Source: Methanococcus maripaludis C5
GTDB taxonomy: Archaea > AGJL01 > Methanococci > Methanococcales > Methanococcaceae
Direction: 5' to 3'
Assembly: GCF_000016125.1 (NCBI RefSeq)
Contig: NC_009135.1
Span: 744,001 to 808,000 of the forward strand
Length of the DNA: 64,000 nucleotides
Below are positions 907 through 4,186 of the stretch, in pieces. The notes under the pieces are model-generated. The model saw nothing but the letters and a program-made list of their open reading frames with translations. It searched no databases and was not told the DNA's origin. Every line of letters begins with the position of its first letter. Position 1 is the stretch's first letter. Both the position numbers and the translations under genes were made by a program.

Positions 907-1164
907 CGGGGCAAAGAGCAAGTTTAATTTCTAAAACTCTTTTATCTTCTTCGATAGTTCATGTTTTAAAAAAGCAGGGCAGGGATAACGATTATAAAAT
1001 ATACAGACAGATTAACAAAGATGTTGAGCAAAAAATAAGAGAATTTACCAATCAATACTGCATAGCAATTATTAAACAGGGAATTCTACTTGAATTTTTT
1101 AATGATCTGCAAGTTTTATATAATCTGATGATATATTGTATATCATACTGATATAATCTATATC
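907..1164 (+). other. Interrupted last spacer / gene remnant before the toxin-antitoxin pair
   Basis: After the last intact repeat there is no new repeat for about 820 bp. The first 245 bp stay open in one frame (83 codons, from a TTG inside the repeat at 900), with a hydrophilic middle and no recognised family. The frame has no Shine-Dalgarno site and its end runs through the promoter of the next gene, so it looks like a remnant of the DNA that brought in the toxin-antitoxin genes rather than a working gene. Left and right ends of the original spacer could not be identified. Confidence 0.4.
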
Positions 1165-1172
1165 ATGGTGAT
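1115..1172 (+). promoter_or_regulatory. Promoter, two operators and SD of the toxin-antitoxin operon
   Basis: A consensus archaeal TATA box TTTATATA lies at 1115-1122, placing the start of transcription near 1145. Two perfect inverted repeats follow: ATGATATA-TTG-TATATCAT (1128-1146) and TGATATA-ATC-TATATCA (1149-1165), with centres 20 bp apart (about two helical turns). The SD GGTGAT at 1167-1172 serves the ATG at 1177. Twin operators overlapping the start site are what autorepression by a ribbon-helix-helix antitoxin would look like. Confidence 0.75.
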
Positions 1173-1176
1173 ACAT

Positions 1177-1425
1177 ATGGTTCATGTTCAAGTTGATTTA
1201 AGCGATGATTCAAACAGGATTATTGAGATATTCAAGGCTCAACATTCAATCCCTAAAAAATCTATCGCAATAGATATGTTTATTTCACAATTTGCGAGTT
1301 ATGGTAAAGAAGCTTTAGAATATAACCCCGCATTTGTAAAAGAAACAATAGAACATAGTAAAGGTAAGGATTTTATAGATATAACGGATAAAAAATCCAG
1401 AAGAAAACATTTGGGATTAGAATGA
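1177..1425 (+). CDS. RelB-like / DUF2683-type antitoxin
   Basis: An 82-aa protein beginning MVHVQVDLSDDSN, which matches the opening of the archaeal DUF2683 family, small ribbon-helix-helix proteins usually paired with RelE toxins (family call from memory). The N-terminal beta strand and two helices would bind DNA; the charged C-terminal tail (residues 45-82) would bind and neutralise the toxin. An in-frame ATG at 1165 exists, but the SD GGTGAT at 1167-1172 and the family's usual N-terminus favour 1177. The stop overlaps the toxin start by 4 bp (ATGA), the normal arrangement of a type II module. Twin operators upstream suggest autoregulation. Confidence 0.75.
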   Translation: MVHVQVDLSDDSNRIIEIFKAQHSIPKKSIAIDMFISQFASYGKEALEYNPAFVKETIEHSKGKDFIDITDKKSRRKHLGLE

Positions 1426-1724
1426 GTGATATGAAATTAGCAATTCGTGATAAACGGGTTCAGAAAAAACTCCAAAAAATTTTTAAAAAAGATAAAGTTC
1501 ATGCAGATGCTATTGACTCTGCATTTGATAAAATTCTTGAATATCCTAATCGCGGTATTCCAATGACTGGTGAACTCGCCGGTTTTAGGCATTTGCATGT
1601 TTATGATTCTTTTGTTATACTTTATTTCGTTGATGAAGTTGAAAAAATAATATATATCGACAACTACGGCCACCATGATGAAATGTATTCATGGAACGAC
1701 AAGATGAAAAAATCAAAAAAATAA
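1422..1724 (+). CDS. RelE/ParE-family toxin
   Basis: A 100-aa protein with the RelE/ParE fold pattern: helical N-terminus (KLAIRDKRVQKKLQKIF), a central helix, then strands with the hallmark end IIYIDNYGHHDEMY near residues 76-89, like the VxxxGHRxxVY end of RelE mRNA interferases. RelE toxins cut mRNA on the ribosome; ParE relatives poison gyrase, and the sequence alone does not settle which. It is translationally coupled to the antitoxin. Its TAA stop (1722-1724) ends one base before the degenerate CRISPR repeat at 1726, so the module sits inside the array. The frame is intact, so the toxin is probably functional. Confidence 0.8.
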   Translation: MSDMKLAIRDKRVQKKLQKIFKKDKVHADAIDSAFDKILEYPNRGIPMTGELAGFRHLHVYDSFVILYFVDEVEKIIYIDNYGHHDEMYSWNDKMKKSKK

Positions 1725-1725
1725 C

Positions 1726-1762
1726 CTAAAAGAATAACTTGCAAAATAACAAGCATTACAAT
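1726..1762 (+). repeat. Degenerate terminal CRISPR repeat
   Basis: The first 32 nt are identical to the array repeat; the last five (ACAAT instead of GAAAC) have diverged, destroying the 5' tag. A decayed final repeat is typical of the leader-distal end and fixes the array's orientation. It is separated from its nearest neighbour by 819 bp holding the toxin-antitoxin genes. Confidence 0.92.
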
Positions 1763-1868
1763 ATGATAAAATCTAAGCAGTTAAAATTCATTGTCTACGA
1801 TCAATCTGATCCAACCCTTTTATATCCTATCTGACCAACGACCACATGAATCCATAAGAATTTCATCG

Positions 1869-2048
1869 CTTAGGATATTTTCGAGCGAAGCGTCCCGAAA
1901 GGGCGAAAATTCCATATGCGGTGAAATTCGACCTCTTTTAGTGTTTAGGATATAATATCCTAAAAAATAATTCATACCGCCCTAGGCACAAAATGTGCGA
2001 AAGCACCTGCTAAACCGTAGCACGGCACCATCGGTGTCGGGCGTGTAC
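1869..2048 (+). ncRNA. Candidate structured RNA downstream of the CRISPR array
   Basis: A GC-richer island in AT-rich DNA with no usable open frame. Domain 1: ATTTTCG (1878-1884) pairs with CGAAAAT (1904-1910) around CCC-GAAA-GGG. Domain 2: TTTAGGATAT (1944-1953) pairs with ATATCCTAAA (1955-1964). Domain 3 is multibranched: TAC-CGCCC (1975-1982) pairs with GGGCG-T-GTA (2039-2047), enclosing GTGC-GAAA-GCAC (1995-2006), GCTA-AACCG-TAGC (2009-2021) and GGCACC-ATC-GGTGTC (2024-2038). A T-run follows at 2050. A TATA-like TTTTATAT at 1818-1825 could drive it. GC islands in AT-rich archaea often mark non-coding RNAs. I recognise neither RNase P nor SRP motifs; a mobile-element remnant is possible. 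Confidence 0.5.
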
Positions 2049-2260
2049 ATTTTTAAAATTTTAAAAAAACTAACCCTGCGCGTTAGCGCTATTAATTATA
2101 CAAAAAAGTTGTAGCAAGAAAAATGCAACGAGATTAAATCCTGCCGTTTTAATTCTTTAATAATTATAAAAGAGCCAAATTATAGATATTTTTTAAGAAA
2201 CTTCTTAAAAGTTTTGAAATTTTAATTTAACGATATACATCGGGTTTGATGTTAAAAGAA

Positions 2261-2379: not shown

Positions 2380-2411
2380 TCTCGAGTTTAAAAAATTTAA
2401 AATGGAAAAAA
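2380..2411 (+). repeat. 32-bp direct repeat, left copy
   Basis: A 32-bp sequence (starts TCTCGAGTTTAAAAAA, ends AATGGAAAAAA) is repeated exactly at 4155-4186. The two copies bracket the broken DUF4041/GIY-YIG gene, so the block between them may have arrived or been duplicated as a unit. Confidence 0.9.
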
Positions 2412-2473
2412 TGACGAAACATTTGAATTTTTAGAAAATAGGCATTTACAAAAATAAAAAAATAATCATGAAA

Positions 2474-4037
2474 TTAAGCTTCTGACTCAAATTTTTCCTT
2501 GTTTTGAATTAATTCATTATTCATTGCAAGCGTTTGACGATACTGCTCAGCTTCAGCAATTTTTGTAAATTCAACGACCTTGTTGTGATTTTCATTAACT
2601 ACTTTTTCAACCTCATGGAGGTTTACCTTAAAGAATTCTTTTTTATTATTGATTTTATTTACCTGTCTTTCTCGGAAATAATTATGAAGTGCAGTTTCGA
2701 GTTTTGGTGCATCTTCACTAAACACCATCGCATGAACATCAAATGGGAATGGAACCGAAGCCCCACTAAGTTCCCTTACCCGGTCAAATGGTTCAAGCCG
2801 TCGAGTCATTCCAATTTTATATACGTCATCCCCCAATGAACCGATATTTGAAATAATATAAACATATCCTGCCCTAGTATTTTGTTCCCTATTGTATACA
2901 TCTTCCTTATCTTTTTCGAGAAGTTTAATTTTTTCTTCGAGTTCCTTTAATTTTTCTTCGTATTTCAATTTTTGAGCTTCCGTTGCATTTTCCATTTTTG
3001 CCTTTAGTCCTTCAACAGCTTGTTTAAAATGAGTTTCTTCTTTTTCAATTTTGGCTTTCATAGTTTCTATTTCTTTTAAAACCCTTGCTTCTTCCCTCAT
3101 TTGTTCTCTTATCCGTGCCTGTTCTTCCTGTTCTTCACGTTTTTTCAGTTCATACTCATATGCGAGATACAATTCTTCTAATTTTAAATTAAGATATTGT
3201 GGAGCAATGGAAATCCTGTTTCTGTTTCCAAGTTTGTTTAAAATTTCGTAAGAAGTCCTAATTCTTTTTTCACTTGCGTCAATATTGTTATATTTGACTT
3301 TGAAAATATTTGCTTCGCATTCATTATTAAAAGAACGGACTATGAGTTTTATGTTATCGTTGGTCATTTTTTGACCTTCTTTTTTACTGCCATTCACGGT
3401 CCAGTCGGGATAATAGTTAACAGCTTCTTTAGATTTAACCATTTCTTTTTGCCGAGCTCTTATTAGAGTAATCTGATTTTTATATGACTCAGACGATGCT
3501 AAATTGTATCTTGGAGAATAAAATCCAAAAGATTGCATTAAAATTTCTTCTTCAAAACAATTATTTTCTTTTCGAGGTCTTTGATTGTATTCAATATGTC
3601 ATTTTTTTGTTTTTTTAAATTTTCTATTTCCAAGTCTGCTTTTTTCCGGAATTCCGTTATTTCAGACTCGATTATTGCTATTTGTTCCTTTTTTCCCGTT
3701 CCATATTTTTAATATTCATTTTAATTTTAGAAATCTTGTTTTGTTTATCGTATTCCAAATTTTCTAAAAATACGTTCACTTCAGTTTCTTTTTCTTTTTT
3801 TAGTTCTTCGAGATTTTCAATTTCTTTTTTTAAATCGAGGTATTTGATCTGTTCGAGATCCGCTTCTTTCTTTTTTAGCTCTCGATTTTCATTTTTTAAG
3901 TCTAAAGAGTTTTTATTCAAAAGTTCGTTTTCCTTTGTTAATTTACCAATATTTTGGTTTAAACGTTCGTTTTCTTTTTTTAGTTCTTCAATTTCTTTTT
4001 TAAATTTTCCAGTGTTAAATATATCGCCAATTCCCAC
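2474..4037 (-). pseudogene. DUF4041 / T5orf172 (GIY-YIG) protein, broken by two frameshifts
   Basis: Three successive frames rebuild one protein of about 520 aa. Residues 1-119 (4037-3678) are coiled coil starting MGIGDIFNTGKF; a middle piece (about 3687-3546) continues KEQIAIIESEITEFRK; the last 354 codons (3538-2474) hold the DUF4041 core (QSFGFYSPRYN, WTVNGSKKEGQKMT, LIVRSFNNECEA), a second coiled coil and a C-terminal GIY-YIG/T5orf172 domain (GYVYIISN, VYKIGMTRR, KEFFKV). Both breaks fit loss of one base in a homopolymer: an A-run near 3688-3695 and a T-run near 3554-3557. Such proteins occur in phage and genomic islands, and GIY-YIG domains are nucleases. The C-terminal part could still be made from the ATG at 3538. 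Homopolymer sequencing errors are the main alternative. Confidence 0.85.
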
Positions 4038-4154
4038 AAAATCACCAGATTCTAATTATTTTGTATGAATCATAATTTTGTTAAGTAGAATATAAAAAAT
4101 TGACGGGTTGTTGGCCGAAGAAACGTCTTATAAAATTAGAATTAGTTGAAAGAT

Positions 4155-4186
4155 TCTCGAGTTTAAAAAATTTAAAATGGAAAAAA
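4155..4186 (+). repeat. 32-bp direct repeat, right copy
   Basis: Exact copy of 2380-2411. It lies just beyond the 3' end of the minus-strand gene at 4189-4662 and about 120 bp upstream of the broken DUF4041 gene. Confidence 0.9.

Follow-up and report, generated by a model that had tools for sequence, protein, structure and literature searches.

A conserved folded region paired with Rep-like genes on integrated Methanococcus elements, and its possible role as a complementary-strand origin

Integrated plasmid-like elements in four Methanococcus genomes carry a folded region of conserved structure that is paired with a Rep-like gene and lies on the strand of that gene. To our knowledge, the replication of integrated methanogen elements has been little explored. 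The member studied here occupies about 1820-2100 on the plus strand of the window, i.e., the whole 64-kb stretch of DNA that was analysed. We put at about even the chance that this region is a folded complementary-strand (sso-like) origin of integrated elements that replicate by the rolling-circle mode. According to this proposal, the element would excise to form a circle, and the Rep-like protein would presumably nick this circle and drive its rolling-circle replication, by which the displaced rep-sense strand would be set free as single-stranded DNA. The region on the displaced strand would then fold into a fixed set of hairpins, and host proteins may recognise these and prime the complementary strand. 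For rolling-circle plasmids, it is established that conversion of single-stranded DNA by host enzymes starts at the sso (PMC5714925).

The stretch 1815-2060 (+), for which the original prediction proposed stems with complementary arms, folds as RNA at -69.0 kcal/mol (z -4.1, 0 of 200 shuffles as good), and its minus strand reaches z -2.4 (5 of 200 shuffles as good). Folded as DNA, 1816-2102 reaches z -5.2 on the plus and z -3.5 on the minus strand, with 0 of 200 shuffles as good on each. The proposed stems are thus borne out by a strong fold compared with shuffles and by their conservation in relatives. Both GAAA loops are where they were predicted, at 1897-1900 (on CCC/GGG) and 1999-2002 (on GTGC/GCAC), and the GC-richer island is real, with a GC content of 0.38-0.46 in 100-nt intervals starting at 1800-2000, against 0.24 at 1700-1799 and 0.19-0.30 in 100-nt intervals starting at 2050-2150. 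The island was also described as free of open frames, which holds apart from two short listed ORFs of 54 aa (1791-1955, +) and 51 aa (1820-1975, -); the longest stop-free run in the window feature covers 53 of about 94 codons. A minus-strand frame is longer in two homologues (73 of ~91 codons in genome G003 and 112 of ~205 codons in the member G002_a), and coding potential was judged from stop-free runs alone. An 8-mer noted earlier, TAGGATAT, indeed has four copies, two each way, at 1822 (reverse complement), 1871, 1946, and 1955 (reverse complement), and 7 occurrences across the whole 64 kb; the outer arms pair together.

The folded region was divided into domains, for which the labels D0-D6 are our own naming. 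D1 (1820-1955, +) consists of an outer helix (1820-1829/1946-1955), a second helix (1840-1850/1937-1945), and a long helix (1858-1883/1904-1929) whose end forks like a Y into two small hairpins, GCG AAG CGT (1885-1893) and CCC GAAA GGG (1894-1903). D5 (1969-2048, +) comprises an AATTCAT linker and then three hairpins, namely, GCC CTA GGC (1979-1987), GTGC GAAA GCAC (1995-2006), and GTAGC...GCGTGTAC (2017-2048). A closed stem around three hairpins, as predicted for 1975-2047, is found in the RNA minimum-energy fold (z -2.3, 5 of 200 shuffles as good), but its closing helix is not conserved in the homologue. The suggested switch, in which GCAC would pair alternatively with GTGC, was not upheld, as this pairing is not kept in the G003 homologue. 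D6 (2077-2100, +) is formed by the hairpin GCGC (GTTA) GCGC (2078-2089) and a small hairpin TAT...ATA (2090-2100), and it lies beyond 2060, the end initially given. This hairpin pair is conserved and readable in all eight members of the family, and the end of the window feature is therefore placed near 2100.

Among 22 family genomes, a long match to the window region was found in one other genome, G003, with 161 of 189 positions identical (85%) and a fold of z -7.6. The G003 copy lies next to a pair of genes, and the second gene of this pair codes for a Rep-like protein of ~410 aa. A non-coding scan and GC profiles round several Rep-like loci revealed GC-rich, strongly folding stretches, and blastn with two of these against 36 genomes gave six long forms of ~400-625 nt: three in G000, the genome of the window locus (C5_a, C5_c, and C5_d), one in G001, and two in G002 (G002_a and G002_b). 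Together with the two short forms, i.e., the window locus (WIN) and the G003 copy (VAN), these make a family of eight. Four short blastn matches to the long forms in the 36 genomes (20-43 nt, E 0.002-0.007) were taken as chance.

Two covariance models connect the short and the long forms. R1, built from WIN and VAN, locates D1 in C5_d (36.8 bits) and G002_a (23.3 bits), the best two of 13 matches in 15 kb (third, 13.7 bits); in both relatives, the letters of the long D1 arm are wholly different, the layout is the same, and the outer helix matches poorly. R2 was built from D5 of five long forms, with the window locus left out and also without G002_a, the most divergent long form, which scores just 14.5 bits at the expected place. 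The best R2 match in the 64-kb window is 1969-2045 (19.6 bits, E 0.0032; runner-up 12.0 bits), and the G003 copy is matched at 30.7 bits (E 3.1e-6), the E-values of both models being rough. By these matches, the long forms are homologous to the window feature. Over the 36 genomes, R1 found no further member; at the family level, it also matches the reverse strands of the two short loci (27.9 and 21.7 bits). Over the same genomes, R2 returned its five training loci and one match in G017 and missed both short forms, though direct searches find them. The G017 match (21.1 bits, E 0.017) was rejected, as it falls inside a 344-aa open frame. Four long forms also contain what looks like another copy of the R2 module, weakly matched (14.8-17.0 bits) ~260 nt upstream of the one in D5, as if the folded region had grown by internal duplication.

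As the original prediction anticipated for true stems, the helices are kept through compensatory changes in relatives. Between WIN and the G003 copy, the D1-bearing consensus has 52 pairs, of which none is broken, three are changed on both sides (1847/1940, 1867/1920, and 1877/1910), and three on one side. The shuffle control is weak with two sequences, 56 of 500 shuffles reaching this result; with partners slid by 1-3 columns, pairing occurs in 31-48% of the cells of the two-genome alignment. Across seven members, 11 of 18 pairs in D5 are changed on both sides and 93% of cells are paired, figures that lean toward structure because the alignment was fitted to the model. For D6 (eight members, seven distinct), the values are 5 of 7 pairs and 95.7% of cells, the second helix of the window copy being shifted by one column in the alignment; the pair count was reached by 5 of 500 shuffles and the covariation score by 0 of 500. 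In D2-D3 of the six long forms, 13 of 42 pairs are changed on both sides and 95.2% of cells are paired; here, the count of pair types was reached by 50 of 500 shuffles and the score by none. Pairing collapses in the slid-partner controls for D5, D6, and D2-D3 alike. The members are related, so the covariation figures are not probabilities. Of the properties expected of an sso, non-coding sequence (judged by stop-free runs), a strong fold on one strand, and conserved structure are present in the region.

The carrier of the window copy is an integrated element of 17.2 kb, G000:C1:729099-746295 (to window position 2295), with 17-bp att repeats at both ends. Its right end, attR (2279-2295), is the repeat ACTGTCATCATACAACG, which has its partner at G000:C1:729099-729115, outside the window, and occurs once at the empty site in G002. 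The genes flanking the element, which we take to be cobJ-like and sucD-like, are separated by 1.3 kb in G001 and G002 but by 20.3 kb in G000, where part of the spacing is due to another insertion on the right side of attR. The element contains a tyrosine integrase, the Rep-like gene, Cas6, Cas3, Cas5, Cas7, Cas8b, Cas1, Cas4, a CRISPR array, and a ParE-like toxin gene; the cas genes are of type I-B. The folded region is the last feature seen before attR and is present as one copy in its genome (search at E up to 0.001). A transposon end or MITE, for which several near-identical genomic copies are expected, was ruled out on this count. The earlier caveat that the region might belong to a known transposon end therefore fails as regards a multicopy transposon end; the region does sit within an integrated element, ~180 nt from the attachment site. 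The order integrase, Rep-like gene, folded region is found on one strand in seven of the eight elements, and in G003 the order is folded region, Rep-like gene, and then a more distant integrase. Candidate att repeats were found in three more elements, CTCGATGATGATTGT being shared by C5_c and G001 and an AT-rich 17-mer occurring in C5_d; no repeat of at least 12 bp was found in C5_a, G002_a, and G002_b.

The Rep-like protein family comprises 11 loci in 7 of the 22 genomes. A folded region is present at all eight Rep-like loci of G000-G003, on the Rep strand each time. None was found at the three Rep loci of G005, G006, and G009, where R2, run without filters over ~20 kb each on the expected side, gave nothing above 12.2 bits. 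One of the 11 proteins resembles phage/plasmid replication protein II/X (rep_II_X; E 2.1e-5, 23.6 bits vs a curated cut-off of 29), and one of the 11 matches Phage_CRI (E 0.0023). There is no conserved His among the invariant or nearly invariant Rep columns, and thus no HUH motif in the conserved columns; likewise, no common nick-site-like motif was found near Rep under the criteria used. Alignment of Rep against viral contigs, and of the Rep proteins against plasmids and phages, gave no match. The assignment as Rep is a weak one.

Covariation alone cannot separate RNA from folded DNA, and the main argument for DNA is a census of hairpin loops. The plus strands of the eight members have 88 hairpins with 9 C(GNA)G triloops, 12 GNYA and 3 GNRA tetraloops, and 0 UNCG loops; the 88 hairpins of the minus strands have 0, 0, 0, and 2, respectively. 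An rRNA stretch of the same genome, of which the 3.3 kb after the 16S gene were assumed from operon order to hold the 23S gene, has 0, 2, 5, and 3 in 62 hairpins, and the rest of the window (5001-64000) has 1, 2, 3, and 0 in 313 hairpins. A Fisher test of 21:3 vs 2:8 gives p 3e-4, with related hairpins treated as independent. GNA and GNYA loops interchange at homologous places, e.g., GAA, GTTA, and GAAA in the second D5 hairpin and GTTA, GACA, GCA, and GAA in D4; the D6 loops are GTTA, GGCA, GTCA, and GACA. According to PMC4686876, DNA mini-hairpins with GNA or GNNA loops closed by G-C stems are extraordinarily stable. The predicted pairs of the family include 62 G-U among 984; the rRNA pieces have 197 among 1346, and the share in 40 random pieces of the window is 11.0%. 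The loop types (GNA, GNYA) and the scarcity of G-U pairs suggest selection for single-stranded DNA in folded form. A tetraloop-receptor reading of D2 was dropped, as the letters vary across members.

The RNA energy ratio of plus to minus strand is 0.96 in the family, with all eight members at or below 1.01; all 12 rRNA pieces are at or above 1.07, and for random pieces of the window the median is 0.93. The RNA-type signature, i.e., GNRA/UNCG loops, frequent G-U pairs, and a stronger sense strand, is thus absent from the family, by a test that is unvalidated on M13. In the intergenic region of M13, which is a known single-strand origin, 1 of 9 hairpins has a C(GNA)G loop, 17 of 148 pairs are G-U, and the RNA strand ratio is 1.12; this region differs from the family, whose loop and G-U signature is absent there, and is RNA-like by two of these measures. 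Since M13 DNA looks RNA-like, neither the signature test nor the loop census is validated on this one known origin.

The main rival, at clearly less than even odds, is that the region acts as RNA, either as a leader or as a large structured non-coding RNA transcribed from the elements that would work in the manner of GOLLD and ROOL, the ornate RNAs of bacterial prophages. The strong fold and the covariation speak for such an RNA, and the plus strand folds better than the minus strand as RNA (lower z) in seven of the eight members. TATA-like boxes were read by eye upstream of C5_c, G001, and G002_b, with TTTATATCC at the two short forms. The region also adjoins attR; in the excised circle it would lie just upstream of attP and the integrase gene, and a leader could act on integrase expression in the circular state only. 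The D6 tetraloops speak against RNA, being GNYA in all eight members and never GNRA, as do the scarce G-U pairs and the lack of an RNA-type strand asymmetry (though the median ratio of random pieces is 0.93) and the lack of any match in Rfam, also with the E-value limit relaxed to 1. In the more specific form of a new class of large ornate archaeal RNA of the GOLLD/ROOL kind, with exchangeable domains, carried beside att on integrative elements and represented in the window by a compact form, the RNA explanation is likewise less probable than not, at nearly the odds of its general form. For the sso-like origin, the presence at all eight Rep-like loci of G000-G003 on the Rep strand, the loop census, the few G-U pairs, and the likeness to rep_II_X and Phage_CRI are the supporting points; against it stand the sub-cut-off Rep match in one of 11 proteins, the missing HUH and nick-site motifs, the three Rep loci without the region, the unlike M13, and the TATA-like boxes, which are as for RNA.

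Another kind of DNA signal, e.g., a double-strand origin, a signal for transfer or packaging, or a stretch near att to which integrase and accessory proteins bind, is improbable. It would fit the spacing between the D6 end and the att repeat in the four elements with an identified repeat (178 nt in the window element, 237 in C5_c, 243 in G001, and 243 in C5_d). However, the G003 region adjoins Rep, three of the seven elements tried have no repeat of 12 bp or more, and in six of the eight, D6 and att have no common 11-mer with up to one mismatch. Least credible, to the point of being nearly negligible, is an RNA or trailer feature linked to CRISPR, a tie which the original prediction implied by placing the region beside the array. 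The array (1-906, +; Rfam RF01375), with 12 repeats whole in the window, is carried by the same element, and the folded region begins ~50-60 nt past its last, lone repeat, which has an altered 3' end (1726-1762, +; RF01375 and its letters). The usual rule for array orientation puts the folded region on the trailer side, which counts against a CRISPR-linked role. Moreover, six 20-kb stretches round the Rep genes of relatives, three of which contain the folded region, have no CRISPR repeat at the Rfam gathering score. The type I-B cas genes are on the carrier element as well, and the proximity to CRISPR therefore seems incidental. No full-length match was found for 27 spacers at the sister-element loci examined, the longest match being 21 nt with one mismatch. 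In window 907-1762, a toxin-antitoxin-like pair (1165-1724, +; DUF2683 and ParE_toxin in Pfam) separates the last regular repeat from the lone altered one, as if it had been inserted into the trailer end of the array.

In agreement with the original prediction, which could not match the region to a known RNA, Rfam at gathering and permissive thresholds gave CRISPR repeats, one tRNA, and chance matches, and no covariance-model match to GOLLD, ROOL, OLE, or other Rfam families. Blastn of the window region against plasmids and phages gave none, and that of the longest relative gave none in plasmids and one 45-nt match at E 0.2 in phages. Five pattern searches of viral contigs gave 0, 0, 64, 0, and 0 matches, the 64 being taken as chance, as that pattern has 15 fixed bases; one pattern searched in genome contigs gave 0 matches, and the ParE-like toxin as bait in genome contigs gave none. 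No description of the folded region was found in the accessible portions of the open-access literature on Methanococcus, archaeal elements, and structured RNAs.

Rolling-circle plasmids, in their sso, and filamentous phages, in their intergenic region, likewise have a non-coding, hairpin-rich stretch fixed to one strand relative to rep; this family differs in being up to ~625 nt long and multi-domain, and the likeness is one of layout. Vectors derived from Methanosarcina pC2A also go back to a replicon of a methanogen that has a Rep protein and for which a single-strand origin has been proposed; there, however, the SSO is given as short motifs next to a DSO that lies within rep, together with a RepA of the HUH type, and not as a large folded region (PMC9569500). 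GOLLD and ROOL are similarly large and elaborately folded; they are prophage-encoded and of unknown function (PMC12286853). They are bacterial and have known transcripts, whereas the present family is archaeal, is known from DNA sequence, and has no Rfam match. Like the elements studied here, those of the pT26-2 family of Methanococcales are integrated plasmids of the same genus; their predicted origins are intergenic, 12 of 15 near Rep genes, and no conserved ori sequence was reported for them (PMC6972569).

A structural family that, in four genomes, accompanies all elements with one type of Rep provides a handle for finding such elements, and it may be useful for shuttle vectors and for testing archaeal priming of single-stranded circles. 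If the region acts as RNA, ornate RNAs would be extended to archaea. One of the elements bears an array together with cas genes of type I-B, so that adaptive immunity can travel along with this element. G000:C1 has four integrated elements, near 209-220, 729-746, 902-925, and 1212-1244 kb, all with the same Rep-like and integrase families and each with a folded region. Lastly, the second insertion to the right of attR, at window 2384-4186, consists of genes with T5orf172/MUG113 domains between direct repeats CTCGAGTTTAAAAAATTTAAAATGGAAAAAA and is missing from the empty site of G002.
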